Of a stretch of 64,000 nucleotides of DNA, positions 11,929-64,000 are shown in pieces. The position numbers and the translations under genes are program-made. The first letter of the stretch is position 1. Each line of letters opens with the position of its first letter. This stretch comes from Malania oleifera (lineage: Eukaryota > Streptophyta > Magnoliopsida > Santalales > Ximeniaceae): assembly GCF_029873635.1 (NCBI RefSeq), contig NC_080419.1, forward strand, positions 63,895,040-63,959,039, read 5' to 3'. Under the pieces are notes generated by a model that did not search any database, was not told the origin of the DNA, and was given only the letters and a program-made list of their open reading frames with translations.

Positions 11929-12807
11929 CCAGTAAGGTTGATGCGGTGGTGAATTAGGCCAGACTAAAGAATGTTCAAGAAGTTAGAAGTTTCTTGGGAC
12001 TGGCAGGTTCTTACCGACGATTTGTGGAGGGATTTTCAGCCTTATCAGGACTTCTCACGCGTTTGACCAGGAAAAATGTCAGATTCATGTGGGGTGAAGA
12101 ATGCCAATAGAGTTTTCAGGATCTAAAGCAGCGGTTCGTCACTGTACTAGTACTGATGATTCCATCAGGAGGTGATAGGTATGTGATTTACAGTGACGTG
12201 TCTTTGAAAGGGCTCGGTTGTGTACTGATGCAGCATGGTAAGGTGGTGGTGTATGTGTCCAGGAAGTTGAAATAATATGAAAAGAACTACCCTACTCACG
12301 ATCTGAAATTGGCTGCGGTTGTATACGCCCTGAAGATCTGGAGACATTACTTATATGGTGAAAGATGTGAAATATTTTCTGACCATAAGAGTTTAAAGTA
12401 TTTTTTTACACAGAAAAAGTTGAATATGCGGCAAAGGAGATGGTTAGAACTCATTAAGGATTACGACTGCACCATCAGTTACCACTTAGGTAAAGCAAAT
12501 GTGGTAGCTGACGCACTGAGCCATAAATCAGAGGATACAGTGCAGGTAGCCACAGTAGTTCAGCACCCAATTCAAATGAACTTGGAAAGACTCGGCGTGG
12601 AGCTAGTGGAAGATAATCCTCGGGCGCTTATTGTCAGTTTGGTTGTACAGCCTACACTATATGAAAGGATAAAAGCTGCTCAGGGGAATGATCCAAAATT
12701 AGTAGAGGTGATAGTCAGAATACAAGATGGTCAGGGAAAGGAATGCAACATTTTTTACGATGGGGCTTTGAGATTTCGCACTAGATTGTGTGTGTCTATG
12801 GATGACA
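11929..12807 (+). pseudogene. A2 reverse transcriptase end and RNase H (left half of A2 pol)
   Basis: Starts abruptly with DPSKVDAVV, continues with VQEVRSFLGLAGSYRRFVEG (about 11968-12030), then RNase H ([25 protein letters not shown]) and the linker [11 protein letters not shown]. It is close to A1 but has different stops (for example TAG after DAVVN). The upstream part of A2 (5' LTR, gag, protease, RT catalytic part) is missing. The frame runs into the TGACA target site of element B at 12803-12807 and continues at 22258. Confidence 0.9.
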
Positions 12808-13040
12808 TGTGATGACCCAAAAATATATATATGATTAAAGTACAATAATAATAAAATAATAAAAATGGTCATTGAGTTAATATCAATACAGAAATGTTTT
12901 TCTGTAGGATCCTTGATTCCATGTTTGATGCCTAAGAAAGACCTTGTCTAAGCGAGTGCTCAGAGACCATTGCGGCTTAGTCGTTCCCTGGAGGTCGGTC
13001 TGGTCAAAATGAAATTTCATAGGATAAACAGGATTGATAC

Positions 13041-13335
13041 TGTTTGTACACGTAAATAAGTATATATACATAAAATAGTGTTTTGACAAATATAATTTGT
13101 AGAAATACATAATAAGATGATAATAATATAGGTATCATATGTGGGGCCCATAAGACTATGTGGGGTCCACATGAGTCCCGGAGCCACAAGACACTGTTTA
13201 TATACGTAAATAAGTACATAAAATAATATTTTGACTGATACAATTTGTAGAAATATATGATAAAATAATAATAATATAGGTATCCTATGCGGGGCCCACA
13301 AGACTGTGTGGGGCCCACATGAGTCCCGAAACCGT
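13041..13335 (+). repeat. Direct duplication with GGGGCCC palindromes in LTR B
   Basis: Two tandem units (13041-13194 and 13195-13335) each run from TGTTT..TACGTAAATAAGT to CATGAGTCCCG. Each contains two TGTGGGGCCCACA-like dyads (13141, 13160, 13289, 13307), with further ones at 13430 and 13449. The same pair is at about 20006-20299 in the 3' LTR. It lies 470-760 bp upstream of the LTR TATA box. Confidence 0.8.
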
Positions 13336-14534
13336 ATGGAGGTTTACACGAGTCTCAAAGCTATGTAGGATGCATAAAATCGTATAAGAGTTATTCGAGC
13401 TACGTAGGATCCATTCGGGTCTCGAAGTTGTGTGGGGACCACAAGACCATGTGGGACTCACATGAGTTTTCAAAATTTAAATTTAATTCTTGTTCAAAAA
13501 TAAATAAATACTAAAAATAGTTTAAAAGTAATAACAATGATAATAATAATGATAATAATGATTAAGAAAAATAATAAAATAACAAAATAATTAATTAACT
13601 AATTGATTAATTAATTAGGTAAGTGGTTAATTAAAAATTTATTTAATGGGAATGATGGCAAGCACTCCCACATGACCTCCATCCCCATCCCATACTCAAC
13701 CCATACCTTGCCCATCATTTGCCCATTTTTTAATTTTTTAAAAATTATAATTTCACCCATCTCCCCACACTTTTATAAATTTCATTTATTTTCCAAAATT
13801 TTCCTATAAATAAGGAGCTCTCAACCTTCATTTTTCACAACAATTTTCCAAGGAAGAGAAGAATTAGTGAGTGAAAGAAATTGTGGTGGAGAGAGAATTT
13901 TTGAGTAAGTTCTCAATCACCCACTCTTTCCGATCTCATTTCTTAGAGATAGTTACAGTGTTCATAAGGAAGAAGGTAAGTAAATTTTGATTATGTTAGT
14001 TTTTTTTTTATTTAAAATTCATACCCGAGTTTATTTTATAAGTAAATTTCAATTATGTTAATTAGTTCCACAAAATTTCCATAGGTTTATTTTTACGCGT
14101 ATTTAATTATATCAGTTCTATCTTTAATATACTTGCATCTATTTTTGGGTTAAGAAATGTTTTAATCCCCTCGGATAAATTTTCAGCATTTTTTTCTATT
14201 CAAAAATAAAATTATATATATTTTTAACACAAAAATTGTGTGGCATGAGTTTATTTCTATGTTACATTTTTTTTATGAAAATATGAGTAAAGATGAGATT
14301 TTTATGATATTATTTTAAATTGCATAAATTATAATAAGATAATTTTAAAACCCCTTATGACAACGAAAGTTCAAAGTTACAGATGCTCGGTACCGCAGCT
14401 TAAAGTTTATACAGATCAGAGTACACCCACACTGTTTACAGAGTGGTTATGTATGTTAGTGGATTTCTCCTGAGTGCACACCTGGTTCCGGACCAGGACT
14501 TAATAAGGAAAATCTCACTTAAAGTTTACGTACG

Positions 14535-16141
14535 TGATTACGCACCGAAACTGCGTAATTGGACGTTTAACCCGAGCTTTACGGTTTATATTTTTAATTA
14601 AATATCTAAAATTGTCCAATATTTTAATAAAATGCCAAAATCATCATTCTTGAACTTTATTGCACTATTTATGAAGTTTTGGTAATTTTTTGTACCAAGA
14701 AAATTCTCGGGAATCAAAACCGACACCTGTTCGTATTTTGTACATAACTTTTCCGTCCAAGCTCCGATTAAGACCATTCAAATTTATGGAGAAAGAGGAA
14801 AGGATTATCTACAACTTTCGTATTTTGAGTTTTGTGAGATACAGGCTCCAAAAGAGTCAGATTTGCGATGAACAGAGAATGAAAAAAATGAAAAAAATAT
14901 AGCAATTCGGGTTTCCTATTCGGGTCTAGGGCTTTTCCCCCTATCCTATTTAACCCTTCTCTTTCTCTTCCTGCGTAGGCAGCCCCCATGGCTCCCCATT
15001 CTCCTCTTCTCCTTCTTCTTCTTCTTCTTCTTTAGTTTGTTTTTTTTTGTTCTTTTCAATTCTGCTTCTCTCCCCTTGTCTCTCTTCCTTCCCTTTGTCT
15101 TTCCTCCCTCACTCTCCCCCTTTCCTCTATTTCTCTTGGCCTCCTCAGCCCTCTTGCAGTACGGCCAGCCTCCTCCACCATCTTCAGCAGTCCCCAAGCA
15201 CAGCAGAACACTAGCCGACTCCATAGCAGGACCACCAAAGCGCAGCAGCAACTTCTCCAGCACAGCAGCAACTTCACGGCTTCGTGGATTTGTTTCCCTC
15301 TCTCTCTTTTTCCTTTCTTTCTTTCTTTTATTTACTTTTCTTTGAATCTTAGAATATTGAAGAAGTTTTAGTTTTTTTTAATGTTATTGGAGTTTTCTTT
15401 CTTTTTGTTTAAGTTGAGTAATGTTGAGTATTTCATTATTGTTAAATTAATCTCTTTGTTTATCTAATTGATAGTTATTTTAATTTAGCATTCTTAATTA
15501 AATTCAGATATTTTTTTTTGTCGAAATTCGATTTAGTTAGGGTCTATGATTAGTAAAGGTTGTGTTTTTATTGTGTTCCGTTATTGTTTACGTTTTTTAA
15601 ATTTCCGTTGAATTCACGTTTGCATTTAAATTGTGAGTCTTGATTTGATCTCTTAATTGTGCTAAAGGTTCGATTTTTAGTAGGTTTGGTTTTTTTTTTA
15701 GTATGTGTCTAGTTTAGTTTCCATTGTGTGTTTTTAATTCCATGTTCTAGGTTGCCATTTTTAATTAACGCGTGTCCCAGTGTTTCCTTAAGTAGACTAG
15801 GGTTTTCATTATTATTATTTTAATTCCATGTTTAAAGTTTCCATTTTTAGTTAGTATGATCTAGTATTTCCTTAAGTAGACTAGGGTTTTCATTATTGTT
15901 ATTTAATTCCGTGCGTGATAGTTTTAGGACTTTAATTTGTGTTTTCATTTAAGTCTCCACAATCTTGAAAACACGAATCTGAACTGAGTTCAGTACCTTT
16001 TTAATTTCAATTGGAAGAAAGTAAAATCTGAGATTAAAACGCATTCCCTGAGGAGACGATCTAGCCCTTGGGCTTAATATTACACGATAGAACTCCTATA
16101 CTTGGGATAGCTTCTGAGCTGCTCATTTTTCGAGTGAGTCA
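14535..16141 (+). mobile_element. Solo-LTR-like insertion inside LTR B
   Basis: A 1607-bp segment present in the 5' LTR of B and absent from the 3' LTR. It begins TGATTACG, ends GTGAGTCA (TG...CA) and is flanked by the duplication GTACG (14530-14534 and 16142-16146). It contains a TATTTAACCC promoter-like site near 14945, a long CT-rich leader and a CCCTGAGGAGACGATC segment near 16048. No coding remnant is seen, so a solo LTR left by LTR-LTR recombination fits best. Family not identified. Confidence 0.8.
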
Positions 16142-16903
16142 GTACGTTGATTTAGTTTGGTCGGCCAGCCAGCTAAGTCCAGTCTTCGGACCGCACAACC
16201 CAGTCATGGGGGTAAACATGACTTACGGCAAACAGGCCTAAATGTGGTTTTTACAATATATGTTTATACATATTTAGTTACGTGTACAAAGTTACTGATG
16301 ATTTGAAGGAAAAGTATAAGTTTACATGAAAATGATCATTTTAGTGCTTAAATGACGATCTAAAGAAAACGTATAAAGAAAAGTATATGTATATTTATCA
16401 TTAAATATTTATATAGTTTTAAAGTTAAAAGTTTAATTTAACAGTTATAGTATATGATTTTAAAATTTTACTGTTATAGTTTATGGTAAAAGTTTTATGT
16501 AGAAATTTTTAAATTTATATTTATTCTAGAGACAGTTTTGAAGTTATAATGTTAAATATTGTTTTACGAAATTTTTAAAAAACTCATTTTTACCACACAC
16601 TAATAATAATCTTATTTACTTACTGAGCGTCGTCTCACTCCAATCATATTTTTATTTCAGAAGGGCATATCGGAAATCAGGCTTAGCAAGCATGCCGGTG
16701 AGGATTAGAAAAATAAAGATTTATTAGAAATATTAGTATGATGCCAGATATTTATGATTATGTAATTTTCTTTTTTTAAAATAAGTGATTGTAATATGGA
16801 TAATTAGCGCTCTGATTTAATTAAAATTGAGTTTATTTTGCTTCCGCTGTAAATCAGTAGTTAAAAGTTAATATCCCAGGCCCCTCGGGATCGAGGTGTT
16901 ACA

Positions 16904-16918
16904 TTTAGTATCAGAGCA
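16904..16918 (+). other. Primer-binding site of element B
   Basis: TTTAGTATCAGAGCA directly follows the 5' LTR. TAGTATCAGAGC matches the initiator Met-tRNA primer site TGGTATCAGAGC at 11 of 12 positions. Confidence 0.85.
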
Positions 16919-17133
16919 CTAGGTTATAAGTTCTGTAGACTTTAAGAAATAATTTACCAGAGCATAGGATATAAGTTCTGCATACTCTAATATATAAATT
17001 TTACCAAAGCTTAGGTATAAAACATGATTTGGATAGGATTGGGTAGTTTAGAATATTTATTTTAGTTTGTTATATTATTATACGTTAATAATATATTTAT
17101 GATTTTAAAATAACATTTTATTATTATTTAAGA

Positions 17134-17250
17134 ATGGATCCTAAAGATAGTAGCATTAGAGGAAATGAGATTTACGTGAAGGGCTCCCAAGGACAGGTAA
17201 TAATTATGAATTCTCTAAGAAAAATAGTAGTATTATTGAAGACACGTTAA
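17134..17250 (+). pseudogene. Probable gag stump of element B
   Basis: A 38-codon frame starting MDPKDSSIRGNEIYVKG and ending at TAA 17248-17250. It sits 230 bp after the primer-binding site, the position where A1 gag also starts with MDP. No gag domain remains. A GTAATA that could serve as a splice donor follows CAG at 17197. Reading it as a gag remnant is inference. Confidence 0.4.
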
Positions 17251-18033
17251 TTAATTTAAATATGTTATTTATGTTTGTGGAAACACGTACCCATATTGAT
17301 AATTCATAATTAATTGTCAAATGCATTAATAATTTAAAATTTATATATATAAATATAATAATAATATCTGAGATTTAATTATTTTTGCTGTTGTTATTTT
17401 CACTAAATATATAAGAAATAACCCATTAGACCCTACTGAATTTAGAAGTGCTACATATACAAATAGATATGAACAAACGGTCTATTATGAAATCTGAATT
17501 CAACCAAAATTTTTTTGCATGTATAAGTTGGATATGAATATGTATTTTTATATTACATATTCAGTTATCAACAAAACATTCAAGCTTAATTTAGGAATAT
17601 ATATTTTGACAAAATCTTTAATTTTTATTTTGTATTAGTATATAAGGAATTGAATATCATTTAAATATTACTTATTATATTTAAATTCAAAAAAAAAAAA
17701 ATCCCTTAGCGTGTGCAAGTTAAATATGTATATCTATTTTTGTTTTTTTTTCATTGCATATTCAATTTCCATCAAGTATCCAAGTTTGATTTAGTAGTAC
17801 AAATTTTGACAAAATCTTAAATTTTGTATAAATTTATAAAAGTTAATACAACTTAAAATTTTCTATATAAAAAAAAAAAAAAAACTTTATATAGTAAAAA
17901 TTTCATTAATGAAAACAATATAAAAATTAACTAATTTCCTTCAAATAACTAACCAATGTCAAATCTTCAATCGGCCAAACATGCCCAACATATATTTGAT
18001 ATAATAATAACAACAACAATAATAATAATAATG

Positions 18034-18037
<4 letters not shown>
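17251..18037 (+). other. AT-rich spacer in element B
   Basis: Low-complexity, poly-A-containing sequence without coding content. No RT, protease or integrase motif was found on either strand. Confidence 0.6.

Positions 18038-18079
<42 letters not shown>
18038..18079. repeat. (AT)n microsatellite
   Basis: About 20 uninterrupted TA dinucleotides, directly before the tail of the SINE. Confidence 0.95.
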
Positions 18080-18081
<2 letters not shown>

Positions 18082-18087
18082 GGTACT

Positions 18088-18252
18088 CTTGCAGTTAAAA
18101 AAAAAGGGGGCCTCATGGATGGAAATCATCGGCTATAGCTCACTTACCCCCGAAGCAAGGCCAGGTCATGAGACCACTTGGGCGTAGTGGGGACTCGAAC
18201 CCGCGATCACATGGATGCACAGTCGGTTCCTTACCACTAGGCCACCCACCCA
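18088..18252 (-). mobile_element. tRNA-derived SINE
   Basis: On the minus strand the sequence has a tRNA-like RNA polymerase III promoter: box A TGGCCTAGTGGTAA (18244-18231) and box B GGGTTCGAGTCC (18202-18191), spaced as in tRNA genes, then a non-tRNA body and a T-rich tail at the low-coordinate end. It would not fold as a tRNA: there is no acceptor stem. No clear target duplication seen. Confidence 0.7.
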
Positions 18253-18340
18253 ATTGGTGATCTAAGGATGAAATTAATTATAGTTAAAGCATTAATAAAG
18301 ATGTAAAAACATAAAAAGAACCTAGAGTCTGCAAATTTTG

Positions 18341-18664
18341 TAATACGTGTCGCTGACTCAATTTCCGCAACACATGTCGCTATCCCTCGATTTGTGCAAA
18401 ACGCGTTGCTCAATATTCGTGACACGCGTCGCTCTCTCTCGATTCTCGTGACACACGTCGTTCTCCCTTGATTTGTGTAAAACACGTTAATCGATATCTG
18501 TGACACGCGTCACCCCCTCTCAGTTCTCGCGACACACATCGTTATCCCTCGATTTGTGCAAAATGTGTTCCTTGATATCTGTGACACGCGTCGCTCTCCC
18601 TCGATTCTCACAGTACACGTCGCTCTCTCTCGATTTCCACAAAACGCGGTCATTCCCTTATAAA
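18341..18664 (+). repeat. Four 81-bp repeats upstream of the WOX-like ORF
   Basis: Copies begin at 18341, 18422, 18503 and 18584. Each 81-bp copy has three sub-units of 29, 30 and 22 bp that share the start ACACGCGTCG or AACGCGT. The fourth copy runs directly into the TATA box, so the array ends where a core promoter begins. It is non-coding. The ACGCGT core is palindromic and CpG-rich. Likely an upstream activating or silencing element of the homeobox ORF. Confidence 0.85.
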
Positions 18665-18667
18665 AAG
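18657..18667 (+). promoter_or_regulatory. TATA box of the WOX-like ORF
   Basis: CTTATAAAAAG ends the fourth 81-bp repeat and lies about 125 bp before the ATG at 18785, predicting a leader of roughly 95 nt. It suggests the ORF has its own promoter besides the LTR. Confidence 0.65.
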
Positions 18668-18784
18668 GGTACGCCCTCCTCAAACTCTAAGCATCACAGT
18701 TTTCTACCATCTTGAACAACCACATTTCGGTTTGAAAAGATTAGTTCTTCCCAACTTTTCTCTTGGTTGTCTCATTACTCAAAA

Positions 18785-19477
18785 ATGTTGCCAAATCACC
18801 CAACTCCTCAAGCTGCTGAGAGCAGCACTAGATCGCTAATCCAAACATGGAAACCTAGCAAGGCACAGCTGGAGATTTTAGAGGAGGCCTTCTGCAGCAG
18901 TCAAGGGGAACTCTCATTTGTGGAACAAACTATCTTACTTGCAGCACAACTTCGAAGGTATGGTCCAATCGAGCCGAGGAATGTGCACTTTTGGTTTGAG
19001 AACCGTAGGCGTAGGCGGGAATCAGTTGGAGAAGCCACTATCCCAACTACTGCCCCATCGATTCTCCATATTACCTCCTCTACCACTACCGACCCGAGCA
19101 GTGCCCCTGCCATTCTTCCAACCCTCTTCCCTATCAAGAATATTCCGACTATGAAACTTACAACTAATATCACACCAATGGGTCATATCCCTTACAATGG
19201 CAATATCGCAGTCACCACACTAAGGGTTTCGGATAATGCTGGCCTACTTCACCATTGCAAGGAAATCCGATTCGCATTGAGACTCATACACGGGCCACCA
19301 ATAACTCAGGAAGAGGGCAGCTCTTCCTCCCTCGCCGAACAAACGGGCGTTCTCTCCCTTTTTCCAACCCAAGCTAGCGACATTATAACAGGTCAACTCT
19401 GCCAAGAAAGAACCCAGGCGGTTAGCAGTGACACCGCTAGTACTGCGATAGATATTGACGTTGATCTAAGGCTCTAA
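18785..19477 (+). CDS. WUSCHEL-related homeobox (WOX)-like protein inside an LTR element
   Basis: A 230-residue open frame without stops. Residues about 19-80 form a WOX-type homeodomain: TWKPSKAQLEILEEAF (helix 1), QLRRYGPIEPRNV (helix 2 and the start of helix 3), and the recognition helix NVHFWFENRRRRRE, where WOX proteins have NVF.WFQN. The Q-to-E change falls at homeodomain position 50; the DNA-contacting N at position 51 is kept. Residues 189-194, VLSLFP, resemble the WUS box (T-L-x-L-F-P), and the protein ends DVDLRL, an EAR-like L-x-L repressor motif. Such proteins are nuclear transcription factors that control stem cells and embryos. No intron interrupts the homeodomain. I chose ATG 18785 because it is the first ATG in frame. 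The ORF lies between primer site and polypurine tract of element B. WOX sub-clade is not decided. Confidence 0.75.
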   Translation: MLPNHPTPQAAESSTRSLIQTWKPSKAQLEILEEAFCSSQGELSFVEQTILLAAQLRRYGPIEPRNVHFWFENRRRRRESVGEATIPTTAPSILHITSSTTTDPSSAPAILPTLFPIKNIPTMKLTTNITPMGHIPYNGNIAVTTLRVSDNAGLLHHCKEIRFALRLIHGPPITQEEGSSSSLAEQTGVLSLFPTQASDIITGQLCQERTQAVSSDTASTAIDIDVDLRL

Positions 19478-19756
19478 AGGCCAAATCTCGTATATTTTTA
19501 ATTTATAGGACATGTATAATATATATACATATATATAATTATCCTTTTCCACATCTTCTGAATTTCTTTTCCATTTCAACCTCTATTAGACCGACGATTC
19601 ACACTTCAATTCCTAAAATAAAATATTTCGCCAAATTGACTCTCAATCTATTCTAAGACTTAGTCAAATCGTTAATCAATATACTCTTTTAAATAGCGCA
19701 ACCAATTATACAGTACTCATTTTAAATTAGCAAATTTCGAGGACGAAATTTTTATA
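19478..19756 (+). other. 3' region of the homeobox ORF up to the polypurine tract
   Basis: AT-rich non-coding sequence with AATAAAATA near 19616 that could act as a polyadenylation signal. It ends in TTTCGAGGACGAAATTTTTATAAGGAGG, the 3' internal end shared with A1 and A2, so the captured sequence joins retroelement DNA somewhere between 19478 and about 19730. Confidence 0.5.
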
Positions 19757-19768
19757 AGGAGGGGAGAT
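19757..19768 (+). other. Polypurine tract of element B
   Basis: AAGGAGGGGAGA followed by the LTR start (TATGATGACCC here, TGTGATGACCC in the 5' LTR). Confidence 0.85.
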
Positions 19769-22252
19769 TATGATGACCCAAAAATATATATATATATGAT
19801 TAAAGCACAATAATAATAAAATAATAAAAATGGTCATTGAGTTAATATCAATACAGAAATGTTTTTCTGTAGGATCCTTGATTCCATGTTTGATGCCTAA
19901 GAAAGACCATGTCTAAGCGAGTGCTCAGAGACCATTGCGACTTAGTCGTTCCCTAGAGGTCGGTCTGATCAAAATGGAATTTCATAGGATAAACAGGATT
20001 GACATTGTTTGTACACGTAAATAAGTATATATACATAAAATAGTGTTTTGACAGACATAATTTGTAGAAATACATAATAAGATGATAATAATATAGGTAT
20101 CATATGTGGGGCCCATAAGACTATGTGGGGTCCACATGAGTCCCGGAGCCACAAGACACTGTTTATATACGTAAATAAGTACATAAAATAATATTTTGAC
20201 TGATACAATTTGTAGAAATATATGATAAAATAATAATAATATAGGTATCCTATGCGGGGCCCACAAGACTGTGTGGGGCCCACATGAGTCCCGAAACCGT
20301 ATGGAGGTTTACACGAGTCTCAAAGCTATGTAGGATGCATAAAATCGTATAAGAGTTATTCGAGCTACGTAGGATCCATTCGGGTCTCGAAGTTGTGTGG
20401 AGACCACAAGACCATGTGGGACTCACATGAGTTTTCAAAATTTAAATTTAATTCTTGTTCAAAAATAAATAAATACTAAAAATAGTTTAAAAGTAATAAC
20501 AATGATAATAATAATGATAATAATGATTAAGAAAAATAATAAAATAACAAAATAATTAATTAACTAATTGATTAATTAATTAGGTAAGTGGTTAATTAAA
20601 AATTTATTTAATGGGAATGGTGGCAAGCACTCCCACATGGCCTCCATCCCCATCCCATACTCAACTCATACCTTACCTATCATTTGGCTATTCTTTAATT
20701 TTTTAAAAATTATAATTTCACCCATCTCCCCACACTTTTATAAATTTCATTTCTTTTCCAAAATTTTCCTATAAATAAGGAGCTCTCAACCTTCATTTTT
20801 CACAACAATTTTCCAAGGAAGAGAAGAATTAGTGAGTGAAAGAAATTGTGGTGGAGAGAGAATTTTTGAGTAAGTTCTCAATTACCCACTCTTTCCGATC
20901 TCATTTCTTAGAGATAGTTACAGTGTTCATAAGGAAGAAGATAAGTAAATTTTGATTATGTTAGTTTTTTTTTATTTAAAATTCATACCCGAGTTTATTT
21001 TATAAGTAAATTTCAATTATGTTAATTAGTTCCACAAAATTTCCATAGGTTTATTTTTACGCGTATTTAATTATATCAGTTCTATCTTTAATATACTTGC
21101 ATCTATTTTTAGGTTAAGAAATGTTTTAATCCCCTCGGGTAAATTTTCAGCATTTTTTTCTATTCAAAAATAAAATTATATATATTTTTAACACAAAAAT
21201 TGTGTGGTATGAGTTTATTTTTATGTTACATTTTTTTTATGAAAATATGAGTAAAGAGATTTTTACGATATTATTTTAAATTGCATAAATTATAATAAGA
21301 TGATTTTAAAACCCCTTATGACAATGAAAGTTCAAAGTTACAGATGCTCGGTACCGCAGCTTAAAGTTTATATGGATCAGAGTGCACCCGCACTGTTTAC
21401 AGAATGGTTATTTATGTTAGTGGATTTCTCCTGAGTGCACACCTAGTTCCAGACCAAGACTTAATAAGGAAAATCTCACTTAAAGTTTATGTACGTTGAT
21501 TTAGTTTGGTCGGCCAGCCAGCTAAGTTCAGTCTTCGGACCGCACAACCAAGTCATGGGGGTAAATATGACTTACGGCAAATAGGCCTAAATGTGGTTTT
21601 TACAATATATGTTTATACATATTTAATTACGTGTACAAAGTTACTGATGATTTGAAGGAAAAGTATAAGTTTACATGAAAATGATCATTTTAGTGCTTAA
21701 ATGACGATTTAAAGAAAACGCATAAGGAAAAGTATATGTATATTTATCATTAAATATTTATACAGTTTTAAAGTTAAAAGTTTAATTTAACAGTTATAAT
21801 ATATGATTATAAAATTTTACTGTTATAGTTTATGGTAAAAGTTTTATGTAAAAATTTTTAAATTTATATTTATTCTAGAGACAGTTTTGAAGTTATAATG
21901 TTAAATATTATTTTACAAAATTTTTAAAAAGCTCATTTTTGCCACACACTAATAATAATCTTATTTACTTACTGAGCGTCGTCTCACTCCAATCATATTT
22001 TTATTTCAGAAGGGCATATCGAAAATCAGGCTTAGCAAGCATGCCGGTGGGGATTAGAAAAATAAAGATTTATTAGAATTATTAGTATGATACCAGATAT
22101 TTTTGCTTATGTAATTTTCTTCTTTTAAAATAAGTGATTGTAATATGGATAATTAGCGCTCTGATTTAATAAAAATTGAGTTTATTTTGGTTCCGCTGTA
22201 AATCAGTAGTAAAAAGTTAATATCTCAAGCTCCTCGGGGTCGGGGTGTTACA
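19769..22252 (+). mobile_element. 3' LTR of element B
   Basis: Matches 12808-16903 without its insertion. Contains the GGGGCCC duplication (about 20006-20299), a TATA box near 20770 and the terminal GGTGTTACA. Followed directly by the duplication TGACA. Confidence 0.9.
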
Positions 22253-22257
22253 TGACA

Positions 22258-23540
22258 GTATCAAGAGGACGATTCTAGAAGAGGCATACAGATCTCTATA
22301 CACTGTTCATCCTGGCAGTACGAAAATGTATAGGGATTTTCGGGAGTATTTCTGGTGGAGTGGTGTGAAGAGAGAAATAGCAGAATTTGTAGAGCAGTGC
22401 TTGACGTGCCAGCAGGTTAAGGCTGAGCACCAGAGGCTGGCAGGTTAGTTGTAGCCACTTTTCATTTCGGAATGGAAGTGGGACCACGTATTCATGGATT
22501 TTGTTACTAGGCTACCGCCGGTGCCGCATGGTTAGAATGTCATTTGGGCGGTGGTTGATAGGTTGACAAAGATAGTGCACTTTCTGCCCATTAAGGTTAG
22601 CTACCCTATGAAAAGGTTAACAGAAATTTACATACAGAAGATTGTTCAACCCCTTGGAGTGCCAGTATCCATGGTCTCGAACCTTGATCCACGTTTTACA
22701 TCGCGGTTCTGGAGGAGTTTGTAAGAGGCACTGGGGACTCAGTTATCATTCAACACAGTTTTCCATTCTCAAACAGGCGGTCAGACAGAGAGAACTATTC
22801 AAGTACTTGAGGATATGTTGCGGGTGTGTGTATTGAATTTTGGGGGTAGCTGGACTCTGTATATCCCATTGGTGGAATTTTCCTACAGTAACAGCTATTA
22901 GGCTAGTATAGGCATGGCTCCTTATGAAGCACTCTATGGTAGGAGGTGTCGTTCCCCTTTATACTGGAGTGAGCAGGGTGAGAGGCGAGTTTTGGGGCCA
23001 GAGATAGTCCAGCAGGCGTACGATAAAGTTTGACTCATTCGAGATAGGATCAGTGCAACACAGAGTCGGCAGAAAAGCTACGTGGATACTCACCACCGGA
23101 AATTGGAATTTGAAGTGGGTGATTATGTATTTCTAAAAATAGCAACCATGAAGGGAATCATGAGGTTTGTGAAGAAGGGTAAGTTAAGCCCTAGGTTTAT
23201 TGGTCCATTTGAGATACTCGAGAAGATTGGGTCAGTTGCCTATCGGCTAACTTTACCGCCGTCTCTATTCAGGATTCACAACGTGTTTCATGTTTCTATG
23301 TTAAGGAAAAAAGTCTCAGATCCTTCCCATATCATTAGCTATATAGAATTGGAACTCAGCGGTGATCTAGCATATGAAGAAGTTTCAGTACAAATGTTAG
23401 GTAGAAAAAAACAAGTATTGTGCAGTAAGAAGATACCGGTAGTAAAAGTCCCGTGGAGGAATCACACAATGGAAGAAGCTTCTTGGGAGCTTGAAAATGA
23501 GATTAGACAGAAATATCCCCACATGTTTAGTGGGTTATAG
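22258..23540 (+). pseudogene. A2 integrase and chromodomain-like end (right half of A2 pol)
   Basis: Resumes the A2 frame after element B. H-H-C-C: YRSLYTVH ... CLTCQQVK (22290-22420). D-D-E: MDFVTRL (22494), SNLDPRF (22680), ERTIQVLED (22790). C-terminal VKVPWRNHTMEEASWELENE and KYPHMF end at 23540. Stops (for example TAG at 22446-22448 and TAA/TGA further on) and a frameshift in the middle inactivate it, but the last 150 codons are open. Element B entered the linker just before integrase. Confidence 0.9.
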
Positions 23541-48960: not shown

Positions 48961-49253
48961 AGCCTCAAAGGCAAGTTAAAGATTTGATGAGCACGGGATA
49001 CGTGAGAAAGAGCATAAGCCCATGAGAAGTACCAATGCTACTAGTGCCATAGAAGGGTGGGACTTGGAGGATGTGCGTTGATTGTAGAGCAGTCAACAAT
49101 ATTACAGTAAAGTATCATCATTCCATTCCAAGATTAGATGATATGCTTGATGAATTGCATGGCTCTTGTATTTTCAGCAAAATAGATCTTTAAAGTGGAT
49201 ACCATCAAATTAGAATGAATAAGGGAGATGAATGGAAAACTACTTTTAAGACT
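48961..49253 (+). pseudogene. Gypsy C reverse transcriptase, left part
   Basis: Visible: LMSTGYVRKSISP (48985-49023), [15 protein letters not shown] (about 49075-49115), [11 protein letters not shown] and the stop-containing SKIDL*SGYHQIRMNKGDEW (about 49180-49230). It stops at KTTFKT, where the SIRE LTR begins at 49254, and resumes at 63031. Confidence 0.85.
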
Positions 49254-51062
49254 TGTTGGCCTAACATGACTTTCGAGTCTCGTTTTGATGACAACAAATG
49301 AAGGTTGATTTAATATGTGTTGTTAAGTGATGATGTTTCAAGAATGCCTAAATGGCAAAGTTCAAAATATCAAAGGAAAAGCAAGTTCAAGATCACCAAG
49401 GACCACAAAACCACACTTATCTTTAAAGTGATCCAAAGGAAGCTCAAGTGGACCAAAAATGATTTGGAAACCTAAAGTTGACTCAAGCTCAAAATCTCAG
49501 AGGACTCAAAGCAAAACTCATATGAAGACTTCAAAGCTTAGAGTGTTTAAGGTTTTAGGATGAACTATGTGAGTACTTCATATTCAAATATCATGTGAAA
49601 TGGTTTGAAGCTCTTTACGGTTTGTCATTGTCTTGGACTTAGAGACCTTGTTTTAAAACCTTAGCAAATATTTTTATAAAGTAACAAAGCAAGAGAGCCA
49701 AGTGTTTTTGAAAAATAACCTGAAAAATAGAAAATTGGTCTGTTCAGGCGACTGAAGTGTAAGCTCAGGCGACTAAAGAATAAGTTCAGGCACCTGAAGA
49801 ATTTCCTGATGAATTTCTGAAGAGGCAGTGTAACCTCAGGCAACTGACCGTTGTCACCTCAGGTGCTTCACCCTATTTTCAGTTCAAAAATTATAGTTTT
49901 AAAGAACCTCAGGCGATTGAACACTGTTAATGGCTATATTTTTAAAAAAGTTTTAAAATTTTAAATTAAGTTTCTTGTGCCCCGTATTTTGTAAAAACTT
50001 GGGAAATACTCCAAGTAAACTTGGGCAACATGAATTAAGCTTTATGAGCCTATAAATATATGTTTTCCCGAATCAAACATATACCAAGCAATTGAAAAAT
50101 CTGCTCCTAAGCTGAAAGCTCACTTATTCTCTCAAAGCTCTCTCTTGCTCACTCTTTCATTCTGAATTGCTGAGATATTCTGAAGCCCTGATCACTCTTC
50201 TCTGAGCTTTAATCATCTAAATTGCTGATTCCTTGTCAAGAGAAGTATTCCGGTGAAATTGTTCTTGAGCTTCAACTCTATTTCGTTTGGTATTTGTTAT
50301 TGAAGCATATAGCACTTTCAATTGTACTAACAAGCTCTATCTAAGAGCATTCTTTGTACAAAAGAAATTGTTTTCTTGTTTCTTGTTTCTTTGACGGTTT
50401 AGGTATTTGGATCGCTGTAACCGAGCGTGGGGTACCACTTGGAGAGGGGGCTCCACCCTAAAGGAAGGTTGTAATCGGTTTGTTCCACCCGGAAAGGAAC
50501 GAGCTAGTGGAATCCTTAGGTGGTCTTGCCTAAGCCGAGGACGTAAGCTGGGTAAGCCGAACCTCATAAAAAATCTCGGTCTCACTCACTCTACCCTTTT
50601 CTATTTAAATTTCAGCATATACAAATCGTGTTTCAAAGTGCAAGTTTGCTGAAAATCTGAGATTGAGAAGACCTTTTAATCTAAGGAAGTACGTTCGTTA
50701 ATACTTTGTGGAAACCTTTAAGGGAGTACGTTGATTAACCGCTTACGGAAATCTTGATTAAAAGGAGCGCATAAAAAAATTCATTCATACAGGGCTATAA
50801 ACTGAATTCTTGCAAACGCTTAAAAAAAAAAGGTGTTGCAGCTCTCACAAAGTTGGCTAAGTATTGTGTAGTTGGGTGATTGTTTATTATTTGATTTGTG
50901 ATTGATTTTTGTGAGTGTGGTTGATTTGTTTGAGTATTTAAAATTAACAACTTCCTTGTGTATTTGATTAAGTCTATAAAAGCTGAAAATTGGTAATAAA
51001 TCTAAAAGAGATTTTTATAAACCCAATTCATCCCCCCTCTTGGGATAACACCTTAACTTTCA
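49254..51062 (+). mobile_element. 5' LTR of a SIRE-type Copia element
   Basis: Begins TGTTGGCCTAAC and ends CACCTTAACTTTCA, directly before TGGTATCAGAGC. The partner is at 61369-63030. The U3 carries a CAGGCGACTGAA array (49743-49922), followed by TATA box TATAAATATA (50051-50060). The lineage follows from the env-like ORF after RNase H and from gag and RT motifs. Confidence 0.9.
49743..49922 (+). repeat. CAGGCGACTGAA motif array in SIRE U3
   Basis: Units TCAGGCGACTGAAG, TCAGGCGACTAAAG, TCAGGCACCTGAAG, TCAGGCAACTGACC, TCAGGTGCTTCACC and TCAGGCGATTGAAC over 180 bp, about 130 bp upstream of the TATA box. The 3' LTR has a fuller set at 61858-62028, including the palindromic TCAGGCGCCTGA. Confidence 0.85.
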
Positions 51063-60842: not shown

Positions 60843-61368
60843 TTTAGTATGTCATTTTGTGATGTATTAAGCACTCTCTATGTATTAGTTATGTTTTATG
60901 ATGCTTTGTTTGTTTTTATTTTCAGTTTGACTTGTACCCTCTATTACTTGTAACCTTTTTGTAATATGACTGCTCTTAAAATTCCTATGCTTTTAATGTG
61001 CTAAACCACTTTGTGTCTATACCCCTCAATTCTTTTTGAATGATGTCAAAGGGGGAGAAATTTTTGAACAAACATGAGCAAACATGAATGAAAAATAAGA
61101 ATATGGCAAATATATAAAGCATATAAAATCTTGGCATATAGCAAGGGGGAGTAAAAGCTGTAAAGAACATGAAAACTATAATGCAAATATGTACATGATA
61201 TGAGCTATAATGAAATATACTCAATTGTGCCTTATTTTTGAACTTACTCATACTTGAAATCATAATTTTCCATATTTGTTTTAAAAGCATGTTTATTGTA
61301 AAGGGAAGCCATTTTTTAAGGATCTGTTATTTTTGCTCCTTATTTGTCATCATAAAAAAGGGAGAGAT
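60843..61368 (+). other. SIRE 3' internal region with several purine tracts
   Basis: Non-coding. Purine tracts CAAAGGGGGAGAAA (61047-61060), GCAAGGGGGAG (61141-61151) and AAAAAAGGGAGAGA (61354-61367). The last abuts the 3' LTR and is the primary polypurine tract. Multiple tracts are characteristic of SIRE elements. Confidence 0.8.
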
Positions 61369-63030
61369 TGTAGGCCTAACATGACTTTCGAATTTCGTTT
61401 TGATGATAACAAATGAAGGTTGATTTAACATGTGTTGTTAAGTGATGATGTTTTAGGAATACCTAAATGACAAAGTTCAAAATATCAAAGGAAAAGCAAG
61501 TTCAAGATCACCAAGGACCACAAAACCACACTTATCGTTAAAGTGATCCAAAGGAAGCTCAAGTGGACCAAAAATGATTTGGAAACCTAAAGTTGACTCA
61601 AGCTCAAAGTCTCAGAGGACTCAAAGCAAAACTCATATGAAGACTTCAAAGCTTAGAGCGTTTAAGGTTTTAGGATGAACTATGTAAGTACTTCATATTC
61701 AAATATCATGTGAAATGGTTTGAAGCTCTTTACGGTTTGTCTTTGTCTTGGACTTAGAGACCTTGTCTTAAAACCCTAGAAAATGTGTTTATAAAGTAAC
61801 AAAGCAAGAGAGCCAAGTGTTTTTGAAAAATAACCTAAAAAACAGAAAATTTGTCTGTTCAGGCAACTAAAGTGTAAGCTCAAGCGCTTGAAGAATTTCC
61901 TCAGGCGACTGAAGAATAAGTTCAGGCGCCTGAAGATTTTCCTAATGAATTTCTGAAGAGGCAATGTAACCTCAGGCGACTAACCCTTGTCACCTCAGGC
62001 GACTGACCTCAACTCCTCAGGCGACTGAATACTATTAACGACTATATTTTTAAAAAAGTTTTAAAATTTAAAATTAAGTTTCTTGTGCCCCATATTTTGT
62101 AAAAACTTGGGAAATACTCCAAGTAAAATTGGGCAACACGAATTAAGTTTTATGAGCCTATAAATACATGTTTTCGTGAATCAAAGATACAAGAAGCAAT
62201 TGAAAAATCTGCTCTTAAGCTGAAAGCTCACTTATGCTCTCAAAGCTCTCTCTTGCTCATTCTTTCATTCTAAATTGCTGAGATATTCTAAAGCACTAAT
62301 CACTCTTCTCGGAGCTCTAATCATCTGAATTGCTGATTCCTTGTCAAGAGAAGTATTCCGGTGAAATTGTTCTTGAGCTTCAACTCTATTTCGTTTGGTA
62401 TTTGTTATTGAAGTATATAGCACTTTCAATTGTACTAACCAGCACTATCTGAGAGCATTCTTTGTACAAAAGAAATTGTTTTCTTGTTTCTTGTTTCTTT
62501 GACAGTTTAGGTATTTGGATCGTTGTAACCGAGCATGGGGTATCACTTGGAGAGGGGGCTCCACCCTAAAGGGAGGTTGTAATCGGTTTGTTCCGCCCGG
62601 AAAGGAACGAGTTAGTGGAATCCTTAGGTAGTCTTACCTAAGGCAAGGACATAGGCAGGGGATAAGCCGAACCTCATAAAAAATCTCGATCTCACTCTCT
62701 CTCTACCCTTTTCTATTTAAATTTCAGCATATACAAATTGTGTTTCAAAGTGCAGGTTTGCTGAAAATCTGAGATTGAGAAGACCTTTTAATCTAAGAAA
62801 GTACGTTGGTTAATATTTTGCGGAAACCTTTAAGGGAGTACGTTGATTAACCGCTTGCGGAAATCTTGATTAAAAGGAGCGCATAAAAAAATTCATTCAT
62901 ACAGAGCTATAAATTGAATTCTTGCAAACGCTAAAAAAGGAGGTGTTGCAGCTCTCACAAAGTTGGCTAAGTATTGTGTAGTTGGGTGATTGTTTATTAT
63001 TTGATTTGTGATTGATTTTTGTGAGTGTGG
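61369..63030 (+). mobile_element. 3' LTR of the SIRE element, end deleted
   Basis: Begins TGTAGGCCTAAC and follows the 5' LTR closely, including the motif array (61858-62028) and TATA box (62159-62166), up to GAGTGTGGTTG. The final roughly 140 bp found in the 5' LTR (50930-51062) are missing and gypsy C RT resumes at once. There is no 5-bp duplication as a result. Confidence 0.9.
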
Positions 63031-64000
63031 TTGGTTAGTCCATTTGGAGTTACAAATGCGCCTAGTGCTTTCATGAGATTAATGAACCATGTATTGCGTG
63101 CGTTCATAAGCAAATTTGTAGTTGTGTACTTTGATGATATCCTAGTGTACAACAAGAACTTAGATGAAGATATTGAGCATTTGAGATTTGTGTTCGATGT
63201 GTTCAAATGTGAAAAGTTGCATGCCAATTCTAAGAAATGTAACTTTTGTATTGAAAAAGTTTTTTTTGGTTATGTTGTTAGTACAAAAGGTATTGAGATG
63301 GATGAAGAGAAAGACAAGGCCGTCAAGGAGTGGCCAACGCCTAAAGGCATCACTGAGGTAAGAAGCTTTCATGGTTTAGCTAGCTTTATAAGTGTTTTGT
63401 TAAGGATTTTAGCACCATTGCTGCACCACTCACTGAAATAATTAAAAAGAATGTTGGATTTCATTGGGGGATTGATCAAGAGAATGCATTTGCTACTATT
63501 AAAGAAAGGTTATGTGCTGCACCTGTGTTAGCATGACTTAAAACAAAACTTTTGAGATTGAATGTGATGCTTCAGGAATAGGAATTGGAGCCGTTTTGAT
63601 GCGGGATAGGCGACCCATAGCTTTCTTCAATGAGTAGCTATGTAGGGCGGCCCTGAATTACCCCACTTTTGACAAAGAACTTTATGCTCTTGTTCATGCT
63701 CTAAAGACGATGCAGCACCACCTTTAGCCTAAGGAGTTTGTGATCCACACTGATCATGAATCATTGAAGCATCTCAAGGGTCAAGGTAAATTAAATAAGA
63801 GACATGCTAGATGGATGGAATACATTGAGACCTTCCCTTATGTCATCCGTTACAAGCAAGGTAAGGAGAACATTGTTGCTAATGCTTTATCACACAGGGA
63901 TGTACTTCTTACTTCTATGAGTGCTAAAATGGTTGGGTTTGAATGTGTGAAATACGTGTATGCCAATGACGCTGATTTTTCTTATGTGTATATGGTGTGT
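63031..64000 (+). pseudogene. Gypsy C reverse transcriptase right part and RNase H, cut by the window end
   Basis: Continues from 49253: [20 protein letters not shown], catalytic [12 protein letters not shown] (63121-63156), [29 protein letters not shown]. Then RNase [54 protein letters not shown] and [16 protein letters not shown]. Stops (for example TGA near 63535 and TAG in FFNE* and HHL*) show decay. About seven residues (the RFGLYE region) were lost at the junction with the SIRE LTR. The motifs fit a chromovirus; the clade is not decided. Confidence 0.88.

Follow-up and report, generated by a model that had tools for sequence, protein, structure and literature searches.

Plant elements with long terminal repeats (LTRs) are known to pick up pieces of genes, and WOX-type homeodomain proteins are regulators that control plant stem cells. 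In maize, the element Bs1 took up segments of ATPase, xylan endohydrolase and glucanase genes, none of them as a full-length open reading frame (ORF), and a new chimeric gene was then described, according to the available parts of PMC13317346. The present analysis concerns a window of 64,000 nucleotides from Malania oleifera (contig NC_080419.1; C3:63895040-63959039 of the 1.494-Gb assembly searched), in which an LTR element spans positions 12808-22252, has TGACA duplicated on either side and encloses a 230-codon ORF with a WOX-type homeodomain. The element very probably represents a high-copy, non-autonomous Ty3/gypsy-type family of M. oleifera, in which gag-pol has been replaced by an intronless WOX-type homeodomain gene with a promoter-like region.

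Paired LTRs with TG...CA ends and a 5-bp duplication, together with a primer site and a polypurine tract beside the LTRs, place the element among the LTR retrotransposons. The original prediction, made from the letters alone, had named the two LTRs, the duplication, the primer site and the polypurine tract, and the analysis bears them out; its interval 16904-19768 corresponds to the internal region, while the full element is the larger one given above. The intact 230-codon ORF that it placed where gag-pol is expected is open from 18785 to 19477. No second ORF of at least 100 codons was found between the LTRs of the window copy, which sets it apart from autonomous Ty3/gypsy elements. Large retrotransposon derivatives (LARDs) are, as we take it, defined by having no internal coding sequence, and the ORF separates the element from these as well.

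Pattern counts, in which up to three mismatches were allowed, gave 446 places in the genome for a homeodomain 36-mer, 642 for the motif at the junction of polypurine tract and 3' LTR, and 295 for a 43-mer of the family leader; each reversed pattern, used as a control, gave 0. In a genome protein search with the ORF, the best 150 of 1028 candidates were scored (E <=4.3e-120); they are 83-100% identical, so the ORF cannot be a chance frame. Internal stops were seen by eye in 39 of these 150 matches and in none of the other 111. An older subfamily was queried with the NCBI protein of LOC131144967 (P0001; C1:79445174), a gene annotated by NCBI that includes a diverged element ORF; many of the best 150 of 2318 candidates scored carry stops. 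An apparent 1069-codon fusion in that search was rejected, since its frame extends across a stretch of N. Subfamilies that differ by ~30% in protein still encode the ORF.

In 19 of 20 copies, each fetched at 10 kb, the ORF is flanked by paired repeats longer than 250 bp; the exception is L021, whose ORF is open and whose fetched stretch contains no LTR pair, and the pair of L015 measures only ~365 bp. A perfect 5-bp duplication borders 13 of the 20 copies as well as the window element, and four of five bases agree in L011 and L016. The script chose the best of nearby offsets, and 12 of the 13 perfect cases also have perfect termini. Among the 100 polypurine tract junctions listed, at least 83 have a WOX ORF upstream (at least 71 by script, at <1.3 kb, and 12 by hand). 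The expectation that several LTR-ORF-LTR copies would lie at different sites was confirmed, and their duplications differ. ORFs or junctions spaced by ~5.3-5.6 kb were also observed at C1:68.24, C2:65.97-66.00, C6:84.61-84.62 and C8:100.64 Mb, as in tandem LTR-internal-LTR-internal arrays that arise by recombination.

The divergence between paired LTRs (Kimura two-parameter distance, K2P) is 0.0004-0.0506 in 19 of the 20 copies, one of them measured over only 363 bp, and 0.0295 in the window copy. At a rate of 1.3e-8 per site per year, as used in the part of PMC6377399 at hand, the insertion ages are 0.02 to 1.95 million years, with 1.13 million years for the window copy. The ORF is open in all seven fetched copies with K2P <0.01 and in seven of the 12 with K2P of 0.027-0.051; among the five broken ones, L011, L015 and L016 carry a stop, and L012 and L022 have lost the start.

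According to the Pfam analysis, the window ORF contains a Homeodomain (E 1.7e-5, 25 bits, cut-off 22.9), and this domain also matched WUSCHEL (2.4e-7) and STENOFOLIA (8.8e-8). When a profile of 16 copies was compared with 177,635 distinct solved sequences, the matches were WUSCHEL (8.2e-13) and STENOFOLIA (5.8e-12), with the next homeodomain at 0.055. By profile, the element homeodomain is convincingly closer to WOX than to other homeodomains, in agreement with the predicted WOX-type domain. All 43 ORFs examined retain W, F and N in the recognition helix. Residue 72, immediately before the invariant N, is E in 42 of them and K in one, whereas Q occupies this position in the 11 host WOX homeodomains used for comparison; the DNA binding may therefore differ from that of host WOX proteins.

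As for the C-terminal half of the protein, VLSLFP resembles a WUS-box, whose definition we take to be T-L-x-L-F-P, and DVDLRL resembles an EAR motif. Both motifs, noted earlier as WUS-box-like and EAR-like, are largely kept among the 43 ORFs (L in 42, S in 42, L in 40, F in 43 and P in 30 for the former; the final L in 39 for the latter). Judged by these residues, VLSLFP is a putative degenerate WUS-box, and the tail may be called EAR-like only. No NCBIfam family was matched by the ORF, and a search of a plasmid collection, included as a negative check, gave no match. Structure prediction from 16 sequences yielded a poor model, with a mean predicted local distance difference test score (pLDDT) of 36.7.

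Fifteen WOX-like rows were listed for the host genome, of which 12 were fetched (L029-L040) and three WUS-like ones were not; 11 entered a tree without outgroup, L032 being left out for an in-frame stop. In this tree, 16 element rows formed one clade with a support of 100/100, separated from the 11 host WOX sequences by a branch of 1.15 changes per site. The identity of the element homeodomain to the 11 host sequences is at most 40% in the five element rows tabulated, and the nearest locus in all five is L034 (37-40%), which we take to resemble WOX1. Since the identity is this low and the clade has its own long branch in a tree without outgroup, the proposed nesting of the ORF inside the WOX family can be called putative only, and the original terms "complete WOX-like transcription factor" and "stem-cell regulator" are both too strong. 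The WOX-type gene would go back to an ancient capture of a plant WOX gene.

The host WUS-boxes read TLQLFP (L034, L037), TLELFP (L036) and TLLLFP (L039). In these four loci the box lies, as judged by eye, 3' of the homeodomain in another frame or past a stop, and an intron between homeodomain and box is therefore probable; in the element ORF, the homeodomain and the WUS-box-like motif share one frame. L039 itself has a divergent WOX-like homeodomain, with its WUS-box-like TLLLFP in another frame. In addition, at least five WUS-like homeodomain copies (two with TAG) were observed on C1, with others on C13 and C435; the group includes C1:44.656-44.686 Mb, L030, L031, L032 and L033 and represents amplified WUSCHEL-like paralogues in Malania.

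Upstream of the ORF, TATAAAA is located at -124 to -140 from the start codon in 45 of the 48 fetched copies; L068 has one at -28, and L041 and L058 have none. In the window, this box lies 3' of an 81-bp tandem array, which is retained in fetched copies at 74-94% identity with a coverage of 84-100%, except for 39% in L022. The motif ACACG[TC] occurs seven times in 18261-18690 against 0.81 expected (0 of 200 shuffles), an enrichment due to the array. In its sequence features, the region resembles an internal promoter preceded by an enhancer-like array, and the ORF would be transcribed from the internal TATA box. The new LTR control that the original prediction foresaw stays hypothetical, and the ORF has this TATA-like promoter of its own.

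Among the 69 perfect matches listed for the leader 43-mer, at least four precede a listed WOX ORF; this small share suggests that another element has the same leader. The ORF lists used for pairing with leader and polypurine tract (149, 21 and 25 rows) are incomplete, so both pairing counts are lower bounds. At C5 97.095-97.104 Mb, two LTR matches (92%, 1101/1101) flank, by coordinate arithmetic, ~4.5 kb that contain the leader (43/43) and for which the lists show no WOX ORF. One piece of this partner, 751 bases long, is one open 250-codon frame matching RVT_1 (8.5e-40), and a second one of 241 bases, close to the 3' end, matches a Tf2-1-like SH3 domain (7.4e-13), with Integrase_p58_C below the cut-off; the SH3 domain is probably the integrase C-terminus. 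The latter piece is 63% identical to the pol-type ORF at 23082 in the window. On the pieces read, reverse transcriptase followed by an integrase-type domain between matching LTRs identifies the partner as a Ty3/gypsy element. Its domain order is, we assume, that of gypsy elements, and presumably it resembles the Tekay/Del chromovirus lineage; Pfam detected no chromodomain in the 80 partner residues scanned. Because an element with the same LTR and the same leader has reverse transcriptase and the integrase-type SH3 domain, mobilisation in trans is likely, and elements of the partner type would supply the proteins.

Selection on the ORF was assessed with 43 of 49 sequences (48 fetched and the window one), six being dropped for frame breaks or truncation. 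Changes were counted by parsimony; the expected numbers were derived from a mutation spectrum that takes CG and CHG context into account, and shifted frames served as controls. Internal branches contained 143 nonsynonymous (N) and 103 synonymous (S) changes against 165.8 and 80.2 expected (omega 0.67, p=0.0015), while the whole-ORF shifted frames gave 1.20 and 1.18; ten other parsimony reconstructions gave whole-ORF values of 0.65-0.68. This may indicate weak purifying selection on the ORF; the dN/dS comparison between copies proposed earlier points in that direction, with a modest signal that is not proof.

These results can be read as a selfish transcription factor, to which we assign a probability of roughly 0.35: the lineage would have given up its structural genes in exchange for a WOX-type gene under a promoter of its own, which selection has kept through the subfamilies, and the protein would set the cell state or transcription for copying of itself and the partner in stem or germ-line cells. 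The step by which the protein would be a DNA-binding regulator retained for its benefit to the element, for instance by opening a window of transcription in meristematic or germ-line cells, is on its own a tentative one with less than even odds. Several points weigh against the account as a whole. Protein similarity served to select all copies, and the set is thereby biased towards conservation. Omega on terminal branches is 0.89 (p=0.067), and the C-terminus shows no purifying signal on internal branches (0.85, p=0.33). The internal values of the other regions are 0.60 for the homeodomain (p=0.019), 0.62 for the middle (p=0.011) and 1.66 for the N-terminus (16 changes), and single regions should not be leant on, because a shifted-frame control of the N-terminus also reached p=0.008 and those of the homeodomain gave 2.31 and 0.81. 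Pairwise estimates scatter widely, with values above 1 for the homeodomain in some young pairs (e.g., 8 N : 1 S between two young lineages). Between the window copy and the seven youngest ones, homeodomain DNA is 86-89% identical, below the leader, a SINE-like (short interspersed nuclear element) stretch and the 5' and 3' untranslated regions (91-98%) and similar to the tandem array (84-91%) and 17951-18105 (83-91%); the lower conservation relative to the flanks suggests mosaic descent or a relaxation of constraint. None of six WUS-type or G-box sites showed enrichment in the LTR, the promoter or the internal region. A profile search of ~5.8 billion proteins found the Malania LOC131144967 as the sole relative and none outside this plant, and the partner was read in the two pieces only.

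A passenger cargo, spread only via LTR copying with a product useless to element and host, is a serious contender with a chance approaching even. It agrees with the weakness of selection on both terminal (0.89) and internal (0.67) branches, with homeodomain DNA that is less conserved between lineages than several noncoding flanks, with the stops in 39 of the best 150 matches and with WUS sites lacking enrichment; it accounts poorly for the internal deficit of N changes beside whole-ORF out-of-frame controls of ~1.2, for the open ORF in all seven youngest fetched copies, for the recognition-helix residues kept in 43 of 43, for the TATA box kept in 45 of 48 and for the coding capacity of subfamilies ~30% apart. 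That the ORF came by transfer from another plant lineage or from a lost WOX subfamily, and not by ordinary capture in the host, is improbable: the 40% ceiling with the 11 host sequences (five element rows) and the 1.15 branch would fit such an origin, but rapid evolution inside a retroelement explains the long branch equally well, and the protein collection held only the one protein, from Malania. It also seems quite improbable that the protein mainly acts on the host, with expressed copies being WOX antagonists or silencing sources in meristems, or with one copy domesticated. The WOX-type homeodomain, the degenerate WUS-box and the annotation of LOC131144967 suggest such a role; however, this gene may be a gene-prediction product, because it lacks the element C-terminus and opens with 58 residues that bear no relation to the ORF, and E at residue 72 in 42 of 43 ORFs in place of the host Q may alter binding. 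That a WOX gene was resident here next to unrelated LTRs, or that the assembly is at fault, has a negligible probability; nothing in the window copy supports it, and the one frame through a run of N lies elsewhere. The same architecture at many sites with differing duplications rules out the resident gene, and the many copies with a homeodomain of the WOX kind likewise dispose of a single-copy, non-homeobox ORF, so neither outcome that could have overturned the original prediction was found.

The remaining features of the window element are collected in Table 1. Its LTRs align in two blocks (97.2% over 1735 and 95.5% over 777 aligned bases), and the 3' LTR starts with TATGATG where the 5' LTR has TGTGATG. 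The primer-binding-site-like TAGTATCAGAGC presumably matches initiator tRNA-Met. The insert in the 5' LTR is probably a solo LTR of another element. All 20 fetched copies contain the SINE-like stretch, at 90-95% identity; ARAGORN detected no tRNA in it (18106-18260), and a tRNA identity was rejected. As judged by eye, pol-type ORFs lie before (12309-12812) and after (23082-23540) the element, which is nested in another, pol-bearing element. A further LTR-like repeat pair (49249-50923 and 61365-63033, 92-94%) surrounds ORFs of Copia type and LINE (long interspersed nuclear element) type, the types again being assigned by eye.

Table 1. Features of the WOX-carrying element and their positions in the window.
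Feature	Position	Strand	Basis
Target site duplication TGACA, left copy	12803..12807		Border comparison
5' LTR, split by nested insert	12808..16903	+	Repeat alignment and borders
Nested insert of 1607 bp (TG...CA, solo-LTR-like) flanked by a GTACG duplication	14535..16141		Absent from 3' LTR
Leader	16904..17260	+	43-mer of family leader searched genome-wide
Primer-binding-site-like TAGTATCAGAGC	16906..16917	+	TGGTATCAGAGC in many other copies
tRNA-like/SINE-like stretch (by eye)	18106..18260	-	Common to fetched copies
81-bp tandem array, 3.5 copies, ACACG[TC]-rich	18366..18648	+	Repeat and motif analysis
TATAAAA box, 126 bp 5' of ATG	18659..18665	+	Position kept among fetched copies
Cargo ORF, 230 codons and stop	18785..19477	+	ORF list, genome protein search
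WOX-type homeodomain, ORF residues 19-80	18839..19024	+	Pfam and profile matches
Putative degenerate WUS-box VLSLFP, ORF residues 189-194	19349..19366	+	Sequence, conservation among 43 ORFs
EAR-like C-terminus DVDLRL, ORF residues 225-230	19457..19474	+	Sequence, conservation among 43 ORFs
Polypurine tract AAGGAGGGGAGAT	19756..19768	+	Adjoins 3' LTR
3' LTR, 2484 bp	19769..22252	+	Repeat alignment and borders
Target site duplication TGACA, right copy	22253..22257		Border comparison

Full-text literature searches, which covered their sources in part, returned no description of a WOX gene in an LTR element. As far as these searches show, no family has been described that maintains, over hundreds of copies, an open ORF of the developmental-regulator type in the place of gag-pol. 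The earliest genome paper on Malania, in the available part, counted an element as intact only when its gag-pol was complete (PMC6377399), and elements of this kind would be missed by such an annotation. The family would be a natural setting in which to test whether a stem-cell-type regulator benefits the mobile element that carries it, and how the host manages a large number of additional WOX-like genes.

Like WUSCHEL and STENOFOLIA, the Malania ORF has a homeodomain matched by profile, a W-F-x-N helix and a WUS-box-like motif; unlike WOX genes, it reaches 37-40% best identity to the host WOX sequences compared, has E for Q before the invariant N, holds homeodomain and box in one frame and is mobile. 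Among plant LTR elements with extra ORFs, Retand TRP28 likewise has an extra ORF between its LTRs and shares a predicted DNA-binding domain and short tandem repeats; in the parts of the two sources at hand, the TRP28 ORFs are, with few exceptions, antisense and located between pol and the 3' LTR, whereas the Malania ORF is sense and at the place of gag-pol (PMC7264820, PMC11963269). The string "homeo" occurs 0 times in the main texts of both, as far as these were available. The tomato element Rider, with the sun locus, also moves a segment that changes development, but this is one transduced locus as against a propagating family in Malania, according to the accessible sections of PMC13317346. 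Bs1 and other gene-transducing LTR elements carry host coding sequence inside an LTR element, and so does the Malania family (same sections of PMC13317346); unlike Bs1, as described there, the Malania family keeps one open regulator-type ORF through hundreds of copies and several subfamilies.

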